Positions 1 through 13,477 of a stretch of 64,000 nucleotides of DNA are shown here, piece after piece (position 1 is the stretch's first letter; each line of letters opens with the position of its first letter). Origin of the DNA: Cafeteria roenbergensis (lineage: Eukaryota; Sar; Bigyra; Bicosoecida; Cafeteriaceae); the NCBI GenBank assembly GCA_008330645.1, contig VLTN01000031.1, forward strand, positions 1 through 64,000. The letters are read 5' to 3'. The translations under genes were made by a program, and so were the position numbers. Under the pieces are notes generated by a model. It made no database searches. It saw nothing but the letters and a program-made list of their open reading frames with translations, and was not told the origin of the DNA.

Positions 1-3000
1 ATGAAGACGAGCGGTGCAAGCGGTGCTCCACCAGCTCTCCGGACAGCCTCGCCAAGGGAGCCTTTCTGAGACACGGATGTCCCTCCAAGAAGTGGGTGCA
101 GTGGTACATCAAGGCGCTGCTCCGGCAGTGCACCTTCGGCGAGGCCTTTGCCGCGGACAAACTGCGGCAGCGCAAGGCGGTGAGCGATCACGTGCCGGTG
201 GCGCTCGAGCCCACCTTGCAGCATGGCACCATGGCAGCGGCGGCGTCCCTGGCGGGTGCTGGGCGCAGAGGCAACGCGGAGGGCCACCCGACCGTCGAGC
301 AAGCGGCGGGAATAAGGGTGCAGCTCACCACGGTAGCGGCCCTGAAGGCGTATCTGCGGCGCCAAAACGGCACTTCCGCCAAGGACCTGGCGAAGAGCAT
401 GGCGTCGGCGGGCACCGTCGCGCAGGACAGGGAGACGCTGGAGGCATTGGTGGACCTGCACCCGAGCGAGGAGGAGGTGGTCGACGGCACAGTGGAGGGA
501 GAAGCGCCGGACCTCACCGACTCCGAGCTCCGGGAAATGGTGTCGGCGGCGATCCAGTCGATGCCGCACAAGAAGGCCGTGGGCCCGGACGGCATGGTCG
601 CGAAGCAGCTGGAGAACATCGCCGAGAAGGACCTGGAGGCGCTCGTGTCATTTGTCCGAAGGGCGTTGAGGAACGACCTCTCTGCCGAGGAGCGCAGGGT
701 CCTCGGGTCGTCAACCCTGATGGCGATCCCCAAGGGCAACGGCAAGATCAGGCCGGTGGCCATGGTCTCGGGCCTGGGCAAGCTGGTGGGCAAGGTGGTG
801 AACACCATCCTGGGAAAGCACGGACTGCTGGACCAGCTGCGCTTCCAGTTCCTGGGCTGCCGAGACGGGTCGTGCAGGCTGGTCCATGCTGTCCGCACCG
901 CGTTCGAGGAGGGGAGGAGCCAAAACGGTGGTGGTAGCGTTGGACATGGCCAACGCCTACAACTCCGTCTCCAGGCGCGCGATGATCGAGGAGGTGCGGC
1001 GGTTGGACGAGAAGCTCGTGCCGGCGGTGCTGGCGCTGTACGGCTCGTCCAGCCCGCTCCTCTTTGCCACGGACGAGGGCGAGGTCTTTGAGCTGAAGTC
1101 CAACAGGGGCGTGCGTCAAGGCGACCCGGCAGCGGGCGCACTGTTTGCGATCGCAGTGCACCCCCTGGTGGACGAGGTGAGGCGCGCCTTCCCAGATGTG
1201 CTCATCTTGCAGATGGCCGACGACACGACGCTGGTGGGCCCGAGGAGGAGCGCCTTCAAGGCAGCCCAGATGCTGGCCGAGCGGCTCAGCACGGTGGGGC
1301 TGCGGATGAACACCAGCAAGACCCAGGTGCTGTGCAAACGTGGACAGCGCGAGGAAACCAAAGCCAGAATTCAGCGGGAGATGAAGCGGAGTAGGGACGA
1401 TCCAGGGTCCCCACCCTCGGTGCTGGAGGGGTGCCACCTCACCGAACGGAGCGTGGCGGTGCTGCAGTGTCCTGTGGGGGAGGACCTCTCACCGGAGGTG
1501 GCTCTAGAGCAGTCGATGAAGCGACTAGAGAAGGAGTTCGGGCCGGCGGCGGAGCGCCTGCTCGCGGGCATCGAGGTCTGCGGGCTCAAGCGGGCGCACC
1601 ACCTACTGCTGTCAGTGCTCGGACAGAAGTTCAGCTACCTGCACAGAGCAGCGGGTGCGGCGGCGGGCCAGGAGCTGGCGGTGTTCCATGCGGCGCTGCT
1701 GGCCAACCTGGCGGCAGTGGCGCACAAGACGGAGCTGGATGCGATCGGCCACGCGCTCTCGGACGAGATGTGCACGGTGACCGAGGACGGCTTCCGTGAG
1801 GCCATGTCCAAGGCCATCGAGGCGCTTGTTCGGGGGCTGCCGGACGAGCACGCAAGGCGGGAGGCGTGGTGGGCGCTCCTGGGCCGGGAAGCCGACGGTG
1901 TGACTCGGCTCGCATCGGCAGCGTCCAACCCGGCCTTGAAGAAGGGAGGCTACGCTCAGATGAGGCTGGCAAAGATGCTGAGCAAGGGCTGCAAAGCCGG
2001 GGGCATGGGCCTGCCTGGCGTGGCGCAGTTCCGCTTCGAAGCGACAGCGGGCTTCATCGAGGCCGTTCGGGACATGCGGAAAGGGCGGTTCGAGATGGCA
2101 CCACCGCCGGAGGAGGCCCTCGACGGACCCGGCACTGGTGGAGGCGGAGGAGAGCCAGCGTCGGGGAGTGGTGCCGGAGCGGGACCAGCCAACGCCGGCG
2201 AGGCGGAAGCGGAGGATGAGTCGGGTGCGGCGGCTGCTGCAGCGGGCGGCACGCCGTGGGTGGACCACCCGGCGGTCGGAGAGAGCGAGTCCAAGGAGGA
2301 CTGCGAGGAGGGGCCGGCGCACGGGCAGCAGCTTGCAGGTACGCTGGACGGCTGGCTCGTCAGCGGTACGGGGGGAGCGGCTGAACCGGGGCATCAGCCA
2401 ACACCGACAAGCGGAGGCCAGACGGTCGGCGGAGGTGCGGCTGCCGCCAGCGCGGCGGGAGCGGCGACCGAGATGACGACGGGCGGCGGCGGCGCAGCGG
2501 CAGCTAGTGCGGCTGGCGCTCCAACCGGCCAAGAGACATCTGATGCCGCACAGCCGAGAGCGGATGCGGCACAGGTCTACTCGGTCAGGCGAACGCCGGC
2601 GATCGGGTTGGCCAGGGACGGACCCGACGCGGACGCGGACGGCAACGACCCCAACTGGAAGGGCATCTCGCTCAAGAAACTCGTGATGCGGGCGCTGAGG
2701 CGCTCAGACCGCAGCGATGCGACCAAGGAGGTGGGCGACATCCTGCTGCGATGCGAGGAGGTCGCCAAGGGAGCTTACCGGGACTACGAGCGGGACAGCA
2801 AGGAGTACAAGGACGCCTGCACCGAGGCACGGTACTTCAGGCCGGACAAGGACTGCGTCGTGGGCAAGGAGGCCGACCTTCATGCCGCCAGGGTGACGAA
2901 GCGCTACCAGCTGGCGCATGTGTGGAGGTCGGACATCGCGGGGGCTGTCGAGGGCCTGGAAGAGCTGCGCGCCGAGATCGAGGAGCTGGCGCTGGAGGCG

Positions 3001-4257
3001 ATGATGGAGCTCAGATCTGACGACGAGTCGTCGGATGACATGGAGGCAACTGCAAACCTGGTGGAGGAGTTCATCAGGGCCTGCAAGGGAGCCCGCTGCC
3101 TGGCCGCAGCGACAGGGTTCGAGGGCTTCTTGCCCGACACCCTGGGTAAGCTGCCGGGCGAGCTGAAGGCCAAGCTCCGCAAGTGCCTGTACGGCGACGG
3201 GGTGACGGCGCGGGCGAACGAGCAGACCGAGGCGCCCTGGCAGCGCAAGATGGTGCTGCACCACGACGACATGCTGCGCATCAAGCACGAGTGTGTCTTC
3301 CTGCGCCGGCTGGCCAAGGCGCGCAGGGCCTGCACAGCACGCTGCAGGGCCGAGGCGCTGGCCAAGGGCACGCCGGAGAAGCGTGTCGCCAACATCGACG
3401 ACCCGGCCATGCTGCGCGTCATGAGCGACCTGGTCGCGTTCCGAGAGGCGTGCGTGCCGGGAACGCACTACTGGCTCCGCAACACGATGATGGGGCCCCG
3501 CGGGCTCACAGACGAGGAGTTCGCGGTGGTCACCCGCTACCGCATCGGAGCCTCCGAGGCCGACCACGTGGTGCCGGACGGCGTGTCGATCAACTGCGCG
3601 TGCGTGCAGCGGGACACCACCGCGAGAGGCACCGTCCACATCGGCGGGGTCTCCGGCGTGGCACATCACCTGGCGCGCTGCCGCTGCGGCAAGGGCTCCA
3701 CCATCCGGGCGCACAACGACGTCCGCGACGTCCTGCACGCGGCGGTGCGCTCGGCGGGGCTGCAGTCGGTGGTGGAGCCCTCCAGCTGGCAGGACGGGCA
3801 GACGCGCTTCGGGTCCCAGCCGGGGTCCAGCGAGGCCGCGCGCAAGCGACCGGACCTGCGGGTGCACGTCGACTTCGAGACCACCTGTCTCGTCGACGTG
3901 CAGATCACCTCGGCGGTGAGCAAGTCCTACGTGACGCAGGGCCTGCAGAACATGGACGCCTTTCTCGAGCGCCGTGAGAATGACAAGATGAGGGAGTACA
4001 AGAAGAGCTCAGCTACAAAGGACAACTTGAGCTCCATTGTGCCCTTCGTCATCACGACCACGGGACGCATGGGACCGGCGGCCTTCGCCTTCCTCAAGAA
4101 GGTGGCGGACACGGCCTTCGGCGACCGGCCGAGGGAGCGTGCGCGCTGGGCCTTCCGCTGGCTGTCGAGGCTGAACGAGGTCATCGCCAAGGGACTGGCG
4201 ACCCAGCTGATCGGGCAGACGCAGTACCTGCGACAGCAGGTGGAGCGTTTGCGGTGA
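1..4257 (+). pseudogene. Frameshifted retrotransposon ORF (reverse transcriptase + restriction-like endonuclease), copy A
   Basis: The frame is the same as the intact ORF of copy C, but one extra G in the GGGG run at 911-914 (GGG in copy C) shifts it just before reverse transcriptase motif A. The N-terminal part is open to about 1091 in one frame, and the rest runs 886-4257 in another. The downstream part keeps LDMANAYN (motif A), GVRQGDP (motif B), MADD (catalytic motif C), a Cys/His cluster and RPD...VDVQI of the endonuclease. As it stands it cannot make a full protein. A homopolymer sequencing error is an equally possible cause. Confidence 0.85.
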
Positions 4258-4446
4258 GCAGGGGCGGCTGAGTGACGACTCGAGGCAGTGTGATGGGAGT
4301 GATCTGGGACTTGAGACTTGGGATTGCGGGTTTGGCGCGGTTTGTGATTCATCGGTGATGGAGTTGCTGGATTGGTGATTGGTGAGTCTGTGAATCGAGT
4401 GTGTGGCATGGTTACGCGAGTTTTCGACCCCCCCCAACGATGTTCA
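1..4446 (+). mobile_element. Non-LTR retrotransposon copy A (R2-like, RLE type), 5' end outside window
   Basis: This is the first of five head-to-tail copies of one LINE-type element. Its sequence is nearly identical to copy C from about base 13 on. It carries the reverse transcriptase and endonuclease region, then a short 3' UTR from 4258, a C8 run (4428-4435) and AACGATGTTCA (4436-4446), where copy B begins. The 5' end is cut by the window edge, so neither its length nor its upstream flank can be seen. The coding frame is broken once, near 911-914. Confidence 0.9.
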
Positions 4447-6141
4447 TCTCGAGGAGGTCGCCAAGGGAGCCTACCGGGACTACGAGCGGGACAGCAAGGA
4501 GTACAAGGACGCCTGCACCGAGGCACGGTACTTCAGGCCGGACAAGGACTGCGTCGTGGGCAAGGAGGCCGACCTTCATGCCGCCAGGGTGAAGAAGCGC
4601 TACCAGCTGGCGCACGTGTGGAGGTCGGACATCGCGGGGGCTGTCGAAGGCTTGGAAGAGCTGCGCGCCGAGATCGAGGAGCTGGCGCTGGAGGCGATGA
4701 TGGAGCTCGGATCTGACGACGAGTCGTCGGATGACATGGAGGCAACTGCAAACCTGGTGGAGGAGTTCATCAGGGCCTGCAAGGGAGCCCGCTGCCTGGC
4801 CGCAGCGACAGGGTTCGAGGGCTTCTTGCCCGACACCCTGGGTAAGCTGCCGGGCGAGCTGAAGGCCAAGCTCCGCAAATGCCTGTACGGCGACGGGGTG
4901 ACGAGGCTGGCGAACGAGCAGACCGAGGCGCCCTGGCAGCGCAAGATGGTGCTACACCACGATGACATGCTGCGCATCAAGCACGAGTGCGTCTTCCTGC
5001 GCCGTCTGGCCAAGGCGCGCAGGGCCTGCACAGCACGCTGCAGGGCCGAGGCGCTGGCCAAGGGCACGCCGGAGAAGCGTGTCGCCAACATCGACGACCC
5101 GGCCATGCTGCGCGTCATGAGCGACCTGGTCGCGTTCCGAGAGGCGTGCGTGCCGGGAACGCACTACTGGCTCCGCAACACGATGATGGGACCCCGCGGG
5201 CTCACAGACGAGGAGTTCGCGGTGGTGGAACGCTACCGCATCGGAGCCTCCGAGGCCGACCACGTGGTGCCGGACGGCGTGTCGATCAACTGCGCGTGCG
5301 TGCAGCGAGACACCACCGCGAGAGGCACCGTCCACATCGGCGGGGTCTCCGGCGTGGCGCATCACCTAGCGCGCTGCCGCTGCGGCAAGGGCTCCACCAT
5401 CCGGGCGCACAACGACGTCCGCGACGTCCTGCACGCGGCGGTGCGCTCGGCGGGGCTGCAGTCGGTGGTGGAGCCCTCCAGCTGGCAGGACGGGCAGACG
5501 CGCTTTGGATCCCAGCCGGGGTCCAGCGAGGCCGCGCGCAAGCGACCGGACCTGCGGGTGCACGTCGACTTCGAGACCACCTGTCTCGTCGACGTGCAGA
5601 TCACCTCGGCGGTGAGCAAGTCCTACGTGACGCAGGGCCTGCAGAACATGGACGCCTTTCTCGAGCGCCGTGAGAATGACAAGATGAGGGAGTACAAGAA
5701 GAGCTCAGCTACAAAGGACAACATGAGCTCCATTGTGCCCTTCGTCATCACGACCACGGGACGCATGGGACCGGCGGCCTTCGCCTTCCTCAAGAAGGTG
5801 GCGGACACGGCCTTCGGCGACCGGCCGAGGGAGCGTGCGCGCTGGGCCTTCCGCTGGCTGTCGAGGCTGAACGAGGTCATCGCCAAGGGACTGGCGACCC
5901 AGCTGATCGGGCAGACGCAGTACCTGCGACAGCAGGTGGAGCGTTTGCGGTGAGCAGGGGCGGCTGAGTGGCGACTCGAGGCAGTGTGATGGGAGTGATC
6001 TGGGCTTGGGACTTGGGATTGTGGGTTTGGCGCGGTTTGTGACTCATCGGTGATGGAGTTGCTGGATTGGTGATTGGTGAGTCTGTGAATCGAGTGTGTG
6101 GTATGGTTACGCGAGTTTTCGACCCCCCCCAACGATGTTCA
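4447..6141 (+). mobile_element. Retrotransposon copy B, 5'-truncated
   Basis: This copy starts directly after the AACGATGTTCA end of copy A. After a few junction bases the homology begins at 4450 (CGAGGAGGTCGCC), matching copy A from 2754. Everything upstream, including the whole reverse transcriptase, is missing. It ends with its own 3' UTR, a C8 run (6123-6130) and AACGATGTTCA (6131-6141). Such 5' truncation is the usual result of incomplete target-primed reverse transcription. Confidence 0.88.
4451..5953 (+). pseudogene. C-terminal remnant of the retrotransposon protein (linker, zinc-knuckle, endonuclease), copy B
   Basis: An open frame of about 500 codons is left from the truncated copy. 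It opens with EEVAKGAY and keeps the Cys/His cluster and the PD-D type endonuclease near its end (RPDLRV, then VDVQIT), but no reverse transcriptase. The frame also reads back into the 3' tail of copy A (to an ATG at 4403); that start is an accident of fusion. It differs from copies A and C by scattered substitutions only. Confidence 0.82.
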
Positions 6142-9100
6142 CCTCAGGAGGCAACGAGATGCCACTCTCTGACGGAGAGAGGGCGTGTGGGGACGGGCGG
6201 TGCAAGCGGTGCTCCACCAGCTCTCCGGACAGCCTCGCCAAGGGAGCCTTTCTGAGACACGGATGTCCCTCCAAGAAGTGGGTGCAGTGGTACATCAAGG
6301 CGCTGCTCCGGCAGTGCACCTTCGGCGAGGCCTTTGCCGCGGACAAACTGCGGCAGCGCAAGGCGGTGAGCGAGCACGTGCCGGTGGCGCTCGAGCCCAC
6401 CTTACAGCATGGCACCATGGCAGCGGCGGCGTCCCTGGCGGGTGCTGGGCGCAGAGGCAACGCGGAGGGCCACCCGACCGTCGAGCAAGCGGCGGGAATA
6501 AGGGTGCAGCTCACCACGGTAGCGGCCCTGAAGGCGTATCTGCGGCGTCAAAACGGCACTTCCGCCAAGGACCTGGCGAAGAGCATGGCGTCGGCGGGCA
6601 CCGTCGCGCAGGACAGGGAGACGCTGGAGGCGTTGATGAACCTGCACCCGAGCGAGGAGGAGGTGGTCGACGGCACAGTGGAGGGAGAAGCGCCGGACCT
6701 CACCGACTCCGAGCTCCGGGAAATGGTGTCGGCGGCGATCCAGTCGATGCCACACAAGAAGGCCGTGGGCCCGGACGGCATGGTCGCGAAGCAGCTGGAG
6801 AACATCGCCGAGAAGGACCTGGATGCGCTCGTGTCATTTGTCCGAAGGGCGTTGAGGAACGACCTCTCTGCCGAGGAGCGCAGGGTCCTCGGGTCGTCAA
6901 CCCTGATGGCGATTCCCAAGGGCAACGGCAAGATCAGGCCGGTGGCCATGGTCTCGGGCCTGGGCAAGCTGGTGGGCAAGGTGGTGAACACCATCCTGGG
7001 AAAGCACGGACTGCTGGACCAGCTGCGCTTCCAGTTCCTGGGCTGCCGAGACGGGTCGTGCAGGCTGGTCCATGCTGTCCGCACCGCGTTCGAGGAGGGA
7101 GGAGCCAAAACGGTGGTGGTAGCGTTGGACATGGCCAACGCCTACAACTCCGTCTCCAGGCGCGCGATGATCGAGGAGGTGCGGCGGTTGGACGAGAAGC
7201 TCGTGCCGGCGGTGCTGGCGCTGTACGGCTCGTCCAGCCCGCTCCTCTTTGCCACGGACGAGGGCGAGGTCTTTGAGCTGAAGTCCAACAGGGGCGTGCG
7301 TCAAGGCGACCCGGCAGCGGGCGCACTGTTTGCGATCGCAGTGCACCCCCTGGTGGACGAGGTGAGGCGCGCCTTCCCAGATGTGCTCATCTTGCAGATG
7401 GCCGACGACACGACGCTGGTGGGCCCGAGGAGGAGCGCCTTCAAGGCAGCCCAGATGCTGGCCGAGCGGCTCAGCACGGTGGGGCTGCGGATGAACGCCG
7501 ACAAGACCCAGGTGCTGTGCAAACGTGGACAGCGCGAGGAAACCAAAGCCAGAATTCAGCGGGTGATGAAGCGGAGTAGGGACGATCCAGGGTCCCCACC
7601 CTCGGTGCTGGAGGGGTGCCACCTCACCGAACGGAGCGTGGCGGTGCTGCAGTGTCCTGTGGGGGAGGACCTCTCACCGGAGGTGGCTCTAGAGCAGTCG
7701 ATGAAGCGACTAGAGAAGGAGTTCGGGCCGGCGGCGGAACGCCTGCTCGCGGGCATCGAGGTCTGCGGGCTCAAGCGGGCGCACCACCTACTGCTGTCAG
7801 TGCTCGGACAGAAGTTCAGCTACCTGCACAGAGCAGCGGGTGCGGCGGCGGGCCAGGAGCTGGCGGTGTTCCATGCGGCGCTGCTGGCCAACCTGGCGGC
7901 AGTGGCGCACAAGACGGAGCTGGATGCGATCGGCCACGCGCTCTCGGACGAGATGTGCACGGTGACCGAGGACGGCTTCCGTGAGGCCATGTCCAAGGCC
8001 ATCGAGGCGCTTGTTCGGGGGCTGCCGGACGAGCACGCAAGGCGGGAGGCGTGGTGGGCGCTCCTGGGCCGGGAAGCCGACGGTGTGACTCGGCTCGCAT
8101 CGGCAGCGTCCAACCCGGCCTTGAAGAAGGGAGGCTACGCTCAGATGAGGCTGGCAAAGATGCTGAGCAAGGGCTGCAAAGCCGGGGGCATGGGCCTGCC
8201 TGGCGTGGCGCAGTTCCGCTTCGAAGCGGCAGCGGGCTTCATCGAGGCCGTTCGCGACATGCGGAAAGGGCGGTTCGAGATGGCACCACCGCCGGAGGAG
8301 GCCCTCGACGGACCCGGCACTGGTGGAGGCGGAGGAGAGCCAGCGTCGGGGAGTGGTGCCGGAGCGGGACCAGCCAGCATCGGCGAGGCGGAAGCGGAGG
8401 ATGAGTCGGGTGCGGCGGCTGCTGCAGCGGGCGGCACGCCGTGGGTGGACCACCCGGCGGTCGGAGAGAGCGAGTCCAAGGAGGACTGCGAGGAGGGGCC
8501 GGCGCACGGGCAGCAGCTTGCAGGTACGCTGGACGGCTGGCTCGTCAGCGGTACGGGGGGAGCGGCTGAACCGGGGCATCAGCCAACACCGACAAGCGGA
8601 GGCCAGACGGTCGGCGGAGGTGCGGCTGCCGCCAGCGCGGCGGGAGCGGCGACCGAGATGACGACGAGCGGCGGCGGCGCAGCGGCAGCTAGTGCGGCTG
8701 GCGCTCCAACCGGCCAAGAGACATCTGATGCCGCACAGCCGAGAGCGGATGCGGCACAGGTCTACTCGGTCAGGCGAACGCCGGCGATCGGGTTGGCCAG
8801 GGACGGACCCGACGCGGACGCGGACGGCAACGACCCCAACTGGAAGGGCATCTCGCTCAAGAAACTCGTGATGCGGGCGCTGAGGCGCTCAGACCGCAGC
8901 GATGCGACCAAGGAGGTGGGCGACATCCTGCTGCGATGCGAGGAGGTCGCCAAGGGAGCTTACCGGGACTACGAGCGGGACAGCAAGGAGTACAAGGACG
9001 CCTGCACCGAGGCACGGTACTTCAGGCCGGACAAGGACTGCGTCGTGGGCAAGGAGGCCGACCTTCATGCCGCCAGGGTGAAGAAGCGCTACCAGCTGGC

Positions 9101-10631
9101 GCATGTGTGGAGGTCTGACATCGCGGGGGCTGTCGAGGGCCTGGAAGAGCTGCGCGCCGAGATCGAGGAGCTGGCGCTGGAGGCGATGATGGAGCTCAGA
9201 TCTGACGACGAGTCGTCGGATGACATGGAGGCAACTGCAAACCTGGTGGAGGAGTTCATCAGGGCCTGCAAGGGAGCCCGCTGCCTGGCCGCAGCGACAG
9301 GGTTCGAGGGCTTCTTGCCCGACACCCTGGGTAAGCTGCCGGGCGAGCTGAAGGCCAAGCTCCGCAAGTGCCTGTACGGCGACGGGGTGACAGCGCGGGC
9401 GAACGAGCAGACCGAGGCGCCCTGGCAGCGCAAGATGGTGCTGCACCACGACGACATGCTGCGCATCAAGCACGAGTGTGTCTTCCTGCGCCGTCTGGCC
9501 AAGGCGCGCAGGGCCTGCACAGCACGCTGCAGGGCCGAGGCGCTGGCCAAGGGCACGCCGGAGAAGCGTGTCGCCAACATCGACGACCCGGCCATGCTGC
9601 GCGTCATGAGCGACCTGGTCGCGTTCCGAGAGGCGTGCGTGCCGGGAACGCACTACTGGCTCCGCAACACGATGATGGGACCCCGCGGGCTCACAGACGA
9701 GGAGTTCGCGGTGGTCACCCGCTACCGCATCGGAGCCTCCGAGGCTGACCACGTGGTGCCAGACGGCGTGTCGATCAACTGCGCGTGCATGCAGCGAGAC
9801 ACCACCGCGAGAGGCACCGTCCACATCGGCGGGGTCTCGGGCGTGGCACATCACCTGGCGCGCTGCCGCTGCGGCAAGGGCTCCACCATCCGGGCGCACA
9901 ACGACGTTCGCGACGTCCTGCACGCGGCGGTGCGCTCGGCGGGGCTACAGTCGGTGGTGGAGCCCTCCAGCTGGCAGGACGGGCAGACGCGCTTCGGGTC
10001 CCAGCCGGGGTCCAGCGAGGCCGCGCGCAAGCGACCGGACCTGCGGGTGCACGTCGACTTCGAGACCACCTGTCTCGTCGACGTGCAGATCACCTCGGCG
10101 GTAAGCAAGTCCTACGTGACGCAGGGCCTGCAGAACATGGACGCCTTTCTCGAGCGCCGTGAGAATGACAAGATGAGGGAGTACAAGAAGAGCTCAGCTA
10201 CAAAGGACAACTTGAGCTCCATTGTGCCCTTCGTCATCACGACCACGGGACGCATGGGACCGGCGGCCTTCGCCTTCCTCAAGAAGGTGGCGGACACGGC
10301 CTTCGGTGATCGGCCGAGGGAGCGTGCGCGCTGGGCCTTTCGCTGGCTGTCGAGGCTGAACGAGGTCATCGCCAAGGGACTGGCGACCCAGCTGATCGGG
10401 CAGACGCAGTACCTGCGACAGCAGGTGGAGCGTTTGCGGTGAGCAGGGGCGGCTGAGTGGCGACTCGAGGCAGTGTGATGGGAGTGATCTGGGACTTGAG
10501 ACTTGGGATTGCGGGTTTGGCGCGGTTTGTGATTCATCGGTGATGGAGTTGCTGGATTGGTGATTGATGAGTCTGTGAATCGAGTGTGTGGCATGGTTAC
10601 GCGAGTTTTCGACCCCCCCCAACGATGTTCA
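6142..10631 (+). mobile_element. Retrotransposon copy C, longest intact copy
   Basis: This is the only copy seen from junction to junction with an unbroken ORF. It follows AACGATGTTCA at 6131-6141, has about 17 bases before the first ATG at 6159, and ends with a C8 run and AACGATGTTCA (10621-10631). No long 5' UTR is present, so it may itself be somewhat 5'-truncated. The 3' UTR (10443-10612) is about 170 bp with no poly-A tail, which is common in site-specific RLE elements. Confidence 0.9.
6159..10442 (+). CDS. Retrotransposon polyprotein: reverse transcriptase and restriction-like endonuclease
   Basis: This protein copies the element RNA into DNA at a nicked target site (target-primed reverse transcription). 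The 1427-residue frame has, in order: a short N-terminal Cys-rich stretch (CGDGRCKRC); the RT fingers with GPDG and IPKGNGKIRPV; motif A LDMANAYN (about residue 324); motif B GVRQGDP; motif C MADD (7398-7409); a long Ala/Gly/Glu-rich linker (about 8280-8760); and a C-terminal Cys/His cluster (9780-9880). It ends with RPDLRV then VDVQIT (10033-10092), the PD-(D/E)XK signature of R2-type elements. No apurinic endonuclease domain is seen. The start is the first ATG inside the element; the frame also reads back into the tail of copy B (ATG 6096), which I discount. This copy is plausibly active. The exact clade (R2, NeSL, CRE-like or Utopia-like) is unresolved. Confidence 0.9.
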   Translation: MPLSDGERACGDGRCKRCSTSSPDSLAKGAFLRHGCPSKKWVQWYIKALLRQCTFGEAFAADKLRQRKAVSEHVPVALEPTLQHGTMAAAASLAGAGRRGNAEGHPTVEQAAGIRVQLTTVAALKAYLRRQNGTSAKDLAKSMASAGTVAQDRETLEALMNLHPSEEEVVDGTVEGEAPDLTDSELREMVSAAIQSMPHKKAVGPDGMVAKQLENIAEKDLDALVSFVRRALRNDLSAEERRVLGSSTLMAIPKGNGKIRPVAMVSGLGKLVGKVVNTILGKHGLLDQLRFQFLGCRDGSCRLVHAVRTAFEEGGAKTVVVALDMANAYNSVSRRAMIEEVRRLDEKLVPAVLALYGSSSPLLFATDEGEVFELKSNRGVRQGDPAAGALFAIAVHPLVDEVRRAFPDVLILQMADDTTLVGPRRSAFKAAQMLAERLSTVGLRMNADKTQVLCKRGQREETKARIQRVMKRSRDDPGSPPSVLEGCHLTERSVAVLQCPVGEDLSPEVALEQSMKRLEKEFGPAAERLLAGIEVCGLKRAHHLLLSVLGQKFSYLHRAAGAAAGQELAVFHAALLANLAAVAHKTELDAIGHALSDEMCTVTEDGFREAMSKAIEALVRGLPDEHARREAWWALLGREADGVTRLASAASNPALKKGGYAQMRLAKMLSKGCKAGGMGLPGVAQFRFEAAAGFIEAVRDMRKGRFEMAPPPEEALDGPGTGGGGGEPASGSGAGAGPASIGEAEAEDESGAAAAAAGGTPWVDHPAVGESESKEDCEEGPAHGQQLAGTLDGWLVSGTGGAAEPGHQPTPTSGGQTVGGGAAAASAAGAATEMTTSGGGAAAASAAGAPTGQETSDAAQPRADAAQVYSVRRTPAIGLARDGPDADADGNDPNWKGISLKKLVMRALRRSDRSDATKEVGDILLRCEEVAKGAYRDYERDSKEYKDACTEARYFRPDKDCVVGKEADLHAARVKKRYQLAHVWRSDIAGAVEGLEELRAEIEELALEAMMELRSDDESSDDMEATANLVEEFIRACKGARCLAAATGFEGFLPDTLGKLPGELKAKLRKCLYGDGVTARANEQTEAPWQRKMVLHHDDMLRIKHECVFLRRLAKARRACTARCRAEALAKGTPEKRVANIDDPAMLRVMSDLVAFREACVPGTHYWLRNTMMGPRGLTDEEFAVVTRYRIGASEADHVVPDGVSINCACMQRDTTARGTVHIGGVSGVAHHLARCRCGKGSTIRAHNDVRDVLHAAVRSAGLQSVVEPSSWQDGQTRFGSQPGSSEAARKRPDLRVHVDFETTCLVDVQITSAVSKSYVTQGLQNMDAFLERRENDKMREYKKSSATKDNLSSIVPFVITTTGRMGPAAFAFLKKVADTAFGDRPRERARWAFRWLSRLNEVIAKGLATQLIGQTQYLRQQVERLR

Positions 10632-11076
10632 TCATAGCTCAGCTACAAAGGACAACTTGAGCTCCATTGTGCCCTTCGTCATCACGACCACGGGACGCAT
10701 GGGACCGGCGGCCTTCGCCTTCCTCAAGAAGGTGGCGGACACGGCCTTCGGTGATCGGCCGAGGGAGCGTGCGCGCTGGGCCTTCCGCTGGCTGTCGAGG
10801 CTGAACGAGGTCATCGCCAAGGGACTGGCGACCCAGCTGATCGGGCAGACGCAGTACCTGCGGCAGCAGGTGGAGCGTATGCGGTGAGCAGGGGCGGCTG
10901 TGTGGTGACTCGAGGCAGTGTGATGGCAGGGATCTGGGATTTGAGACTTGGGATTGTGGGTTTGGCGCGGTTTGTGATTCATCGGTGATGGCGTTGCTGG
11001 ATTGGTGATTGGTGAGTCTGTGAATCGAGTGTGTGGCATGGTTTTGCGAGCTTTTGACCCCCCCCAACGATGTTCA
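10632..11076 (+). mobile_element. Retrotransposon copy D, strongly 5'-truncated
   Basis: Homology starts at about 10636 (AGCTCAGCTAC, matching copy A from 4005), so only the last 80 or so codons and the 3' UTR remain. It ends with C8 and AACGATGTTCA at 11066-11076. Its tail differs from A-C at several positions (for example GTTTTGCGAGC in place of GGTTACGCGAG), so it comes from a slightly different source copy or is older. Confidence 0.87.
10636..10887 (+). pseudogene. Last 83 codons of the retrotransposon protein, copy D
   Basis: The fragment encodes the extreme C terminus downstream of the endonuclease motif, ending VERMR where the other copies have VERLR. It is only a leftover of the truncated copy and has no start of its own. 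Confidence 0.8.
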
Positions 11077-11240
11077 TCTGTTCTGCCTGGGAGTGATCTG
11101 GGACTTGAGACTTGGGATTGCGGGTTTGGAGCGGTTTGTGATTCATCGGTGATGGAGTTGCTGGATTGGTTTTTGATGAGTCTGTGAATCGAGTGTGTGG
11201 TATGGTTACGCGAGTTTTCGACCCCCCCCAACGATGTTCA
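11077..11240 (+). mobile_element. Retrotransposon copy E, 3' UTR only
   Basis: After the AACGATGTTCA of copy D come a T and 11 bases (11078-11088, CTGTTCTGCCT) that do not match the element at that point. The 3' UTR then starts at 11089 and runs to the C8 run and AACGATGTTCA at 11230-11240. The low-GC island starts immediately after. The 11 bases look like junction filler. Confidence 0.82.
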
Positions 11241-11834
11241 TTCAAACGCCCTGTTACTCGTCCTTGCACAGAATATTGTTATAACGACCTGTATTTGCTT
11301 CGTATTTGGTACTGGGATACCCACGGCGTCGACGATCTACGGGTTATCACGACAGTTCGTGATTATCATCGGATGAGTGTTGAGAATCGATCAACAATTT
11401 CCATTACAACCGAAGATGGAAACATCATGAATGCCCCATTCAACATCTTAGAGTATATGAGATTCAGGATTGTTTTTGACATGGAGAAAAAATTTGTCCT
11501 GAAACGTCGAGAAAAGGATGGTGCTCTGACTCGGGACATGACCTTCACAGATTTTGAGATTTCAGGACATGGCAGTGCGCTGATTGTAACTGACGAAGAC
11601 CTGGACAGAGTAGCGTTCCCGTACCACATTTTGTCTTTGGGTTACTATCACAAGAAGACGGTGAGAAAGGAGCCTGGAGAGACCTTTTCGCATCGTGAGG
11701 TGCTAGATGCCCTGTTTGAACTGGAGGAGTATGAACGTGTAGATATCCCTCGCTTTAACGAAAAATTCTTCCATGGTTTGTATTACGAGCCTGCACACGG
11801 CATGTATGTTCCGTGTTGGGGAGAAAAAGGCTAA
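11241..11834 (+). pseudogene. 3' part of an unrecognised gene, 5' end lost to the retrotransposon array
   Basis: About 197 codons are open up to TAA at 11832. I do not recognise the protein. It is rich in aromatic and charged residues (LLRIWYWD, YMRFRIVFDMEKKFVLKRRE, FHGLYYEPAHGMY) with no obvious motif, signal peptide or membrane span. Codons are AT-leaning (AAA, GAT, TTT, GTT), unlike every host gene here. The frame stays open into the tail of copy E (ATG 11166), but that is fusion. The simplest reading is that the retrotransposon inserted in this gene and split it. An intact homologue in a low-GC viral or mobile element would explain it. Confidence 0.6.
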
Positions 11835-11965
11835 AATGTATGTGCAAGATGATAAGAGCCGCTGCCCGGATAATACATTTTACTATAGAGAAAAAAGATA
11901 AAAGGGGCACCTCCCACTAATCCTCAAAATGCTCCCACAGAGCAATAATACCCGAAATTGCACTG

Positions 11966-11991
11966 AACCCATGGGGGGTACCCCATGGGTT
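11966..11991. other. Short hairpin, 11-bp stem
   Basis: AACCCATGGGG and CCCCATGGGTT are perfectly complementary around a GGTA loop. It lies about 130 bases after the stop codon of the island gene. It might be a 3' processing or termination signal of the foreign element; the role is not known. Confidence 0.5.
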
Positions 11992-12034
11992 TCAACCAAT
12001 TATTGCAAAAATCGCTGTACAGCATGGGGGATAA

Positions 12035-12259
12035 TTACCCGTTGACTTTTTTGGCAACATTGGATAATTTTTAGCAGGCAATGCTTGCTGAGAATTTCCC
12101 AGGTACTTATCGACGTCGATAAGTACTATACATACATTTTGTTTACCCGCTGACTTTTTTGGCAACATTGGATAATTTTTATCCCGTAATGCTTGCTGGG
12201 AATTTTCAGGTACTTATAGGTACTTATCGACGTCGATAAGTACTATACACATATTTTGG
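12035..12259 (+). repeat. Two diverged direct repeats of about 108-117 bp
   Basis: Unit 1 is 12035-12142 and unit 2 is 12143-12259. Both open with TTACCCG(T/C)TGAC and GGCAACATTGG, share an AATGCTTGCTG block, then a 24-bp palindrome (12103-12126 and 12220-12243, core TATCGACGTCGATA), and end with AAGTACTATACA plus ACATTTTG or a close variant. Unit 2 carries an extra partial copy of GGTACTTATA. The order of parts is fully kept, so this is tandem duplication of a functional-looking block such as an origin or recombination site. Confidence 0.8.
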
Positions 12260-12301
12260 CAAATATATTTCGCTGTTTTCAATATATTCAGAGAAAAATC
12301 A

Positions 12302-12433
12302 CTGTTATAGTTTAATATATTTCTGGATATGATGATATTTCAGCGCGGCCAAAAATGTGTGTATAGTACTATACACACATTTTTGGCCGCGCTGAAATAT
12401 CATCATATCCAGAAATATATTAAACTATAACAG
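12302..12433. repeat. Perfect 132-bp palindrome at the island/host border
   Basis: Bases 12302-12367 are the exact reverse complement of 12368-12433, with no spacer and no mismatch; the next outer bases (A at 12301, C at 12434) do not pair. The centre reads AGTACT and continues ATACACACATTTTTGG on either strand, close to the ends of the two direct repeats upstream. The right end adjoins host ankyrin coding sequence. A replicated hairpin telomere or two terminal repeats joined head to head would give this structure; so would a fold-back assembly artefact. Confidence 0.9.
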
Positions 12434-13477
12434 CAACAGCTCCACCGTGTCCTTGCGGCCCCTTGCTGTCATCATCAGTAGCGCAGTAGCGCCATCCTGC
12501 GAGCACGCATGCTTGTACGACACCGTACATCGAAGTACCGTCACTGACGTCCAGCCAGCCCCTCCAGCAAGGCCTCCCACGCCAGCACGCGGCATGAGCC
12601 CGACAACTTGACGCCTCGACGCCATTGCGGTCCACGGCCAAAAGAGTGACGCCGGCCGCGGTCCGTCGCACAGTGTGGCACAATCTCGGCGCTCACGCGG
12701 CCCTTGGCCTGCACGTCGGCGCCGCAATGCACCAGCAGCTCCACCGTTTCCTTGTGGCCCCGCCGGGCAGCCGCAACAAGCGCCGTATCGCCATACTGCG
12801 AGAACGCCCGCTCGCACCGCACCGCACATCGACGTCCCGTCACCGCCTTCCAGACAGCCCCTGAAGCATGACCCCCCACGCCGGCAAGCGACACGAGCAC
12901 GGCTCCCTGACGCCTCGACGCCATCACGGTCGCCGGCCCGCTAGTGACACCCAACGCTGTCCATTGCACAGTGTAGCACCATCGGAGCTCTCACGCGGCC
13001 CTTGGCCTCCAGGTCGGCGCCTCGGTCCAGCAGCAGCTCCACAGTGTCCGTGTGGCCACGCTCTGCCGCAGCCAACAGCGCTGTGGAGCCTCCCTGCGAG
13101 GACCCATGTCCCGATTACGCACGGCCCACCACCGCCTAGCAGCCCTCTCGACACATCACCGGCGCCGCCGCTTTGTCGACTCACGTCCCCAGGCCGTCTT
13201 GTGTCTGGCTCCGAGCACCTGCTCCTCGCGGCTCGCCCGCGGTCATTGGCACAGACCGCCAGCAGCCTGCTCGCTGAGCAACTCTCTGTCCTGCTCGGTG
13301 AGCACGATGGCTTGGGGGCACCACGCCGTGGCACCAAAAGCTCACCTGTTTGAAATTTCTCCAGTCGACAGGCGCGCCCGCGTCGAGCAGACTTCTTGCT
13401 TCGGCGGTGTTCCCTCCCTTCGCCGCCTCCCAGTGGGCAGCCCCCATTGCTTCCGCGTCTACTGCAGGCGCTGCCAT
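12425..13477 (-). pseudogene. Ankyrin-repeat gene, broken in its fourth exon by the low-GC island
   Basis: Reading on the minus strand, exon 1 is 13477-13346 (start MAAPAVDAEAMG, a first ankyrin-like helix pair AAHWEAAKGGNTAEARSLL), exon 2 is 13093-12995, exon 3 is 12795-12697 and exon 4 starts at 12496. All junctions are GTGAG...CAG and phase 0. Exons 2 and 3 are exactly 99 bp, one 33-residue ankyrin repeat each, with TAL.AAA..GH.(D/E)TVELL..GAD. Exon 4 begins the next repeat (DGATALLMMTARG) but runs into the palindrome after VELLL and meets a stop at 12425-12427. Without the insertion more repeats would be expected. Ankyrin repeats bind proteins; no partner can be named. Confidence 0.85.

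Follow-up and report, generated by a model that had tools for sequence, protein, structure and literature searches.

A perfect palindrome at positions 12,302–12,433 of a 64-kb stretch of the Cafeteria roenbergensis genome (the window; first 64 kb of contig 31, VLTN01000031.1) raises the question of why such a sequence lies exactly where DNA of low guanine-plus-cytosine (GC) content gives way to host coding sequence. The first-pass annotation, made from the window alone, had suggested a hairpin-telomere-like terminus or an undescribed integration route, with a fold-back assembly error as the trivial explanation. Comparison with the other genomic copies showed that the palindrome forms the end of a mavirus-like virophage integrated in the host DNA (endogenous mavirus-like element, EMALE), a member of the group that encodes a tyrosine recombinase (YR). 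The suggestion of a telomere-like, hairpin-like terminus was upheld as the best reading, based on concerted arms at many element ends, and we consider it, jointly with the whole explanation developed below, to be probably correct.

Structure of the terminal palindrome

The palindrome of 132 bp was confirmed: its arms (12,302–12,367 and 12,368–12,433, 66 nt each) are 100% complementary, with no mismatch and a spacer of 0. Comparison with other copies showed that the element's own palindrome comprises 130 bp (12,303–12,432; two 65-nt arms), starts with TGTTATAG, finishes with CTATAACA, and is identical in 15 of the 28 ends read. The outermost pair, 12,302/12,433, matches by chance; base 12,433 is host DNA, and the flanking base adjoining the tip, read towards the element, was C in 10 of the 28 copies. 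The inner arm (12,303–12,367, forward strand) joins the subterminal repeat of the element, its inner neighbour being the same or similar across the family, and the outer arm (12,368–12,432, reverse strand) meets host DNA at the tip CTATAACA. Folding of 12,303–12,432 as single-stranded DNA gave −71.2 kcal/mol (z −25.5; shuffled mean −9.8), a value reached by none of 200 shuffled sequences. Exactly one palindrome with arms of at least 20 nt and a loop of at most 5 nt was present within the window, and all 36 such palindromes in 337,796 scanned bases (the window and fetched loci, partly overlapping) were ends of this element class.

Distribution of the palindrome in the genome

The genome searched consisted of 36,303,456 bases in 167 contigs, which are denoted by C and a number; fetched loci are denoted by L and a number. 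A DNA search with the arm yielded 52 arm matches at 26 loci, and the full-length copies examined had the same element sequence on one side and differing DNA on the other. Tip-to-tip patterns detected 29 ends genome-wide (6 + 23), and neither the reversed control patterns nor a tip pattern with a gap of 30–60 gave any match. Of the 25 matches obtained with the subterminal repeat, 24 were followed on the outside by a tip that is palindromic or can form a stem, and the remaining one, on C34, adjoined a truncated arm. Host-type DNA was found outside the tip in 24 of the 28 ends read (a C35 end stands outside this count), with 23 different flanks, one of which is common to both C29 ends. The other four ends were followed by Ngaro retrotransposon sequence (C8 and C76), low-GC DNA (one C88 end) or an extra half-arm (C110), and on C137 only about 25 nt of host-type DNA lay outside the tip before Ngaro sequence began. 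The same sequence is found at the ends of copies whose flanks differ, which shows that the palindrome is part of the virophage terminus itself and was not created by the present insertion.

The Ngaro sequences directly outside the palindromes at C8:740907 (L019) and C76:128700 (L028) were 96.6% and 90% identical to that of the window, respectively, and these virophages appear to lie within or next to retrotransposons. At C88:13169-20367 (L015, L016), two palindromic ends were found 7 kb apart in the same orientation; outside the first lies low-GC DNA, with a capsid gene 350 bp away, and one virophage seems to have been inserted in another. The extra half-arm at C110:20744-20939 (L029) ends close to the centre sequence TATAGT, a pattern that breakage of an older end at its centre would leave. 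At C135:14407-14475 (L032, L049), the outer arm is broken near the palindrome centre by the Ngaro-type repeat end AACACCGTTGGGGGG, and an insertion preference of Ngaro for the hairpin tip is possible.

Concerted change of the arms within an end

Perfect palindromes were found in 23 of the 28 ends. There were 12 distinct sequences among the ends read, 7 of them perfect, with 0 to 32 positional differences between their arms and that of the window. The C48 and C86 ends have one substitution and one insertion in common, both present in both arms; an inner block was replaced in both arms of the C58 left and C23 left ends; and 20 positions were missing from both arms on C4. The left and right ends of the C23 element were 12 positions per arm apart, and each was perfect. 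The C58 right end had a shorter stem and a 3-nt loop, the sequence of which was found in both orientations in the C58 left end.

A second palindrome family was reached through the YR, which was recognised by motif and by alignment of six database homologues and was assigned to no family by Pfam. Relatives of this protein were found on C149 (42% identical), C5 (36%) and C137 (short pieces, 37–55%), on contigs that had given no match to the arm or to the subterminal repeat. It was inspection of the DNA beside the YR genes, not the arm search, that revealed perfect palindromes of 90 bp directly at the element borders of C149 and C137; they share the 8-bp tips of the window palindrome but have unrelated arms, and a third perfect copy was obtained from a search match on C35. 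The YR gene was found on 10 contigs, eight with a palindromic end, one with a truncated end and one (C5) on which the edge was not reached. As controls, edges at 4 of 15 other major capsid protein (MCP) loci were sampled, three of which reached a GC edge and one of which (C2) did not. The three edges (C69, C16 and C100), on contigs with no YR match, had no palindrome with arms of at least 14 nt and a loop of at most 5 nt, within edges whose exact termini are not fixed by a second end. The low-GC virophage edge on C16 (L046 3200-3460) contained short stem-loops near the border, TAACCGCCGTCGGCGGTTA and one imperfect, which are perhaps another, weaker terminal hairpin.

Since diverged ends stay self-complementary, including those with unrelated arms and the two different ends of C23, the arms appear to be copied within an end. 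In these sequences, the arms are thus equalised within an end and not between the ends of an element, as expected for a fold-back or hairpin terminus.

Complete elements and their integration

The C1 element (C1:229814-248770; 18,957 bp) is complete, has an end identical to that in the window, and carries terminal inverted repeats (TIRs) of 833 bp with 99.2% identity. Its genes encode an rve integrase, an MCP_V20_C capsid protein, a 1073-aa primase-helicase (PriCT_2 and Herpes_ori_bp) and an HNH/DUF3223 protein, the HNH match of which was below its cut-off. This gene set is that of the mid-GC EMALEs (Hackl et al. 2021, PMC8547959; here and below, statements on published work refer to the portions of text available). 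The EMALE features of capsid, rve, primase-helicase, YR, TIRs and short target site duplications (TSDs) were found in the complete elements, and the window copy is a one-ended fragment. Scans of viral contigs with single MCP, primase-helicase and integrase proteins, which detect close relatives only, gave no confirmed match. At L035:1006-1614, the DUF3223/HNH-like protein is encoded directly inside the TIR, and the same open reading frame (ORF) start was found in all four two-ended elements; that this protein could be a nicking enzyme is conceivable, as a guess.

Three of the four two-ended elements had 5-bp TSDs outside the tips: AGAGC on C1, AGCTC on C23 (19,600 bp) and AGACC on C58. The integration of palindromic virophages therefore looks ordinary, and the undescribed route proposed from the window alone found no support. 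A 1,290-bp direct host repeat with 99.9% identity (C1:227813-229101 and 249481-250770) flanks the C1 element, each copy lying about 710 bp beyond the respective end. The fourth element, on C29 (C29:7076-32899; 25,824 bp), contains a high-GC insert.

A fold-back model of the virophage end

We think it likely that the palindrome is the natural terminus of mid-GC EMALEs and that the self-complementary ends of their linear genomes fold back for end replication. On copying through the folded end, one arm would serve as template for the other, so that the 5′ ends could be completed with no need for a protein primer and the perfection of the palindrome would be maintained. The copies would then be separated by strand transfer, either at the border between the palindrome and the subterminal repeat or at the palindrome centre. 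After extension, the end would be a full palindrome with a free tip in blunt form, and the rve integrase would join this tip to host DNA, leaving the 5-bp duplication. Candidate resolving enzymes would be the YR of the element, the HNH protein and a giant-virus resolvase, the YR being a candidate by co-occurrence only. Mid-GC EMALEs are described as having a YR and a longer primase-helicase and no protein-primed polymerase, truncated EMALEs as having regained TIRs (PMC8547959), and helicase versions as going with the TIR sequence in EMALE04, the low-GC type 4 (PMC10945749). The reported lack of the polymerase, the regained TIRs and the helicase–TIR pairing fit the fold-back model.

Several points weigh against this model. 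The 15 identical ends count as one observation of symmetry, and most ends came from searching with the palindrome sequence or its tips, those on C149 and C137 being the exceptions. Five of the 28 ends were imperfect (C29 left, C58 right, C76, C110 and C108). The two arms differed from each other at 2, 5 and 2 positions in C29 left, C76 and C110, respectively, and in the C108 end (C108:28118-28205, L026) the stem arms enclosed about 30 nt that were unpaired; integrated ends so decay or integrate in other forms. In place of a direct duplication, the C29 element has inverted host flanks, which are copies of each other with 99.7% identity over 2.5 kb (L023, L027, L041-L043) and probably reflect an assembly walk through inverted repeats, a real inverted duplication being the alternative. 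A search for the protein-primed polymerase family PF03175 gave no genome match at E 0.001, and the control genomes likewise gave none, or matches below the cut-off. Folded or closed ends of free virophage genomes are what we infer from integrated copies, and equal arms could also result from gene conversion between them within the host or from read polishing.

Alternative explanations

One variant of the fold-back model is a parvovirus-like rolling hairpin, in which open, self-priming palindromes would be nicked at the palindrome/subterminal border. We consider this variant possible, if tentative. In its favour, the integrated form is an extended terminal palindrome. The C58 left end can be written as A-[stem TCC stem]-centre-[stem GGA stem]-A′ and the C58 right end as A-[stem TCC stem]-A′, so that a T shape and a simple hairpin may be formed by these ends, of which the right one was folded computationally. 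The C108 and C58 right ends are single versions of a part that is doubled elsewhere, which for C108 is the central part of the standard palindrome. However, no HUH-type nickase was recognised by Pfam domain among the 16 scanned element proteins and P0001, the ORF remaining in the window.

Outside the fold-back model, the palindrome could simply be an integrase-binding end that is long and symmetric, or the tip of a fold-back transposon, with its symmetry maintained by gene conversion between the arms in the host chromosome and no role in replication. The conserved tips TGTTATAG/CTATAACA and the 5-bp TSDs fit this explanation, as does the presence of both a YR and an rve integrase in the element. 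However, a short end should suffice for an integrase, and no such palindrome was present at the three edges sampled from other virophages of this genome. Moreover, the symmetry persisted in unrelated arms and in block replacements, and no homogenisation between the two ends was seen in C23 or C58. We therefore judge this explanation unlikely.

Within the fold-back model, a second variant is a telomere-resolvase-type end, in which genomes would have closed hairpins and the YR would cut and reseal the palindrome centre. It appears doubtful to us. The co-occurrence of the YR with palindromic ends on 8 of 10 contigs and the breaks near the palindrome centre at C135 and C110 are consistent with it, and a telomere resolvase with a telRL-like palindrome has been proposed in Ectocarpus giant-virus elements (PMC13236599). 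On the other hand, the structure model of the YR (mean predicted local distance difference test score 81.5, predicted template modelling score 0.61) matched XerA, Cre, lambda integrase and others, and the listed matches were ordinary recombinases and topoisomerases. Telomere resolvases were absent among the fold matches shown, a list beyond which another family is possible, and a sequence search of the PDB with the YR alignment gave a single match that was not credible (E=0.21). In addition, the integrated form keeps both arms, and a closed hairpin would need re-extension. The YR, with about 278 aa, is also smaller than known telomere resolvases. The wider proposal that palindromic virophages replaced a lost protein-primed polymerase by hairpin telomeres, with the YR acting as telomere resolvase on the terminal palindrome, is in our view improbable.

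It is very improbable that fold-back reads or short-read polishing made or equalised the second arm, the error considered in the first-pass annotation. The assembly is PacBio-based and was polished with Racon (PMC6972860), and the inverted host flank at C29 is suspicious, but a fold-back would leave element sequence on both sides, whereas host-type DNA lies outside the outer arm in 24 of 28 ends with 23 different flanks; furthermore, mismatched arms survive at C29, C76 and C110, and TSDs adjoin the outer arm in three of four elements. A one-off hairpin made during this insertion was ruled out by the presence of the same sequence at many sites, a solo miniature inverted-repeat transposable element or fold-back element by the finding of no such palindrome away from element ends in the scanned bases, and an ordinary host repeat, likewise raised from the window alone, was rejected as the arm is widespread, but at element ends.

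Surroundings of the palindrome in the window

The placement of the palindrome at the border of a low-GC, virus-like island was borne out by the GC content, which was 0.46 at 11–12 kb, 0.53 at 12–13 kb and 0.66 at 13–14 kb, and by the virophage TIR on its left. The palindrome also adjoins host ankyrin coding sequence, as initially annotated: the host target on its right (12,434–13,021, reverse strand) is a tandem ankyrin-repeat coding array with a 299-bp unit, and a scan of five of its minus-strand frames gave a Pfam Ank match in one (E=1.2e-7). Paralogous, uninterrupted 299-bp ankyrin repeats were present on contigs C10 and C129.

The window holds one end of a truncated virophage element. By sequence comparison, a subterminal part of the TIR (about 474 bp; 11,828–12,302, forward strand) was identified, which was 92.7–94.9% identical to seven of the eight ends of the four two-ended elements and 86.9% identical to the diverged C23 left end. 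It contains two copies of a perfect 24-bp palindrome, GTACTTATCGACGTCGATAAGTAC, at 12,103–12,126 and, 117 bp further on, at 12,220–12,243, which may be a candidate protein-binding site. Both are followed by TATACA, resembling the core of the terminal palindrome; a 22-bp core of the 24-bp palindrome was found once per end in C1 and C23 and not in C58. The remainder of the element ORF P0001 (11,242–11,834, forward strand) matched no Pfam family over the cut-off and had no tblastn match among the element pieces compared.

The virophage is truncated by Ngaro-like retrotransposon sequence (1–11,241, forward strand), recognised by reverse transcriptase and repeats, which extends to the contig start at window base 1. 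RVT_1 (reverse transcriptase) was detected in two ORFs of this stretch. Its terminal repeats finish in ACCCCCCCCAACGATGTTCAT, and four repeat copies finish in AACGATGTTCAT. Within 1–10,490, Ngaro-like blocks are directly repeated about 6186 bp apart with about 99% identity. The tRNA and Rfam scans of the window found nothing, and blastn of 11,242–12,450 against a phage collection gave no match.

Relation to known systems and significance

The EMALEs of Cafeteria burkhardae (PMC8547959, PMC10945749) resemble these elements in forming low-GC islands in a host of 70% GC, in their Ngaro insertions, and in rve, MCP, primase-helicase, YR, TIRs and short TSDs; the 833-bp TIR of the C1 element falls in their published range of 0.2–2.3 kb. 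They differ in that terminal palindromes and concerted arms are unmentioned in the main texts of both papers, in which, supplements aside, 'palindrom' and 'hairpin' occur 0 times. Nothing on palindromic virophage ends was found in literature on palindromes, hairpins or resolvases of virophages, polinton-like viruses and Mavericks/Polintons, consisting mostly of main texts accessible without subscription, nor in the available portions of PMC10120064, PMC12220804, PMC9952930, PMC12747079, PMC11071308, PMC7031253 and PMC11788076. The element is thus of a known kind, and a palindromic telomere-like end with concerted arms appears to be undescribed so far.

In adeno-associated virus and other parvoviruses, the genome terminates in a long palindrome, followed on its inner side by a block that is not palindromic. 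The virophage ends are alike in having a terminal palindrome and an inner block, and a stem bearing two side hairpins could form from the C58 left end, but they belong to elements with virophage genes and TIRs of about 0.8 kb in which no Rep-like nickase was recognised. Replication through the hairpin ends of poxviruses, asfarviruses and phycodnaviruses gives palindromes. The closed hairpins of these viruses (PMC11788076) are similar in combining inverted terminal repeats with fold-back ends; they are described as flip-flop hairpins, whereas most ends here are perfect and were read from integrated copies. The nearest precedent found is the proposed telomere resolvase site in the Ectocarpus giant-virus elements (PMC13236599). 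Phage N15 and these phaeovirus elements likewise combine a palindromic telomere junction with a resolvase-class or tyrosine-recombinase enzyme in the same genome. Telomere-resolvase replicons have an internal site that is cut there, whereas the palindrome here caps both ends of the integrated form, and the predicted fold of the YR is Cre/Xer-like, any resolvase role being putative. Mavericks/Polintons share the rve integrase, TIRs and TSDs (6 bp, PMC12747079; 5–6 bp, PMC8547959), but encode a protein-primed polymerase, which the mid-GC EMALE group reportedly does not.

How virophages without a protein-primed polymerase complete the ends of their linear genomes is a question to which concerted palindromic ends offer a concrete, testable answer. 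Such ends could also explain how truncated EMALEs regained TIRs, and they suggest what the second integration enzyme, the YR, might do. If the model is true, related virophages replicate their DNA ends in different ways, and the palindrome would be an exact sequence mark of virophage genome ends in protist assemblies.
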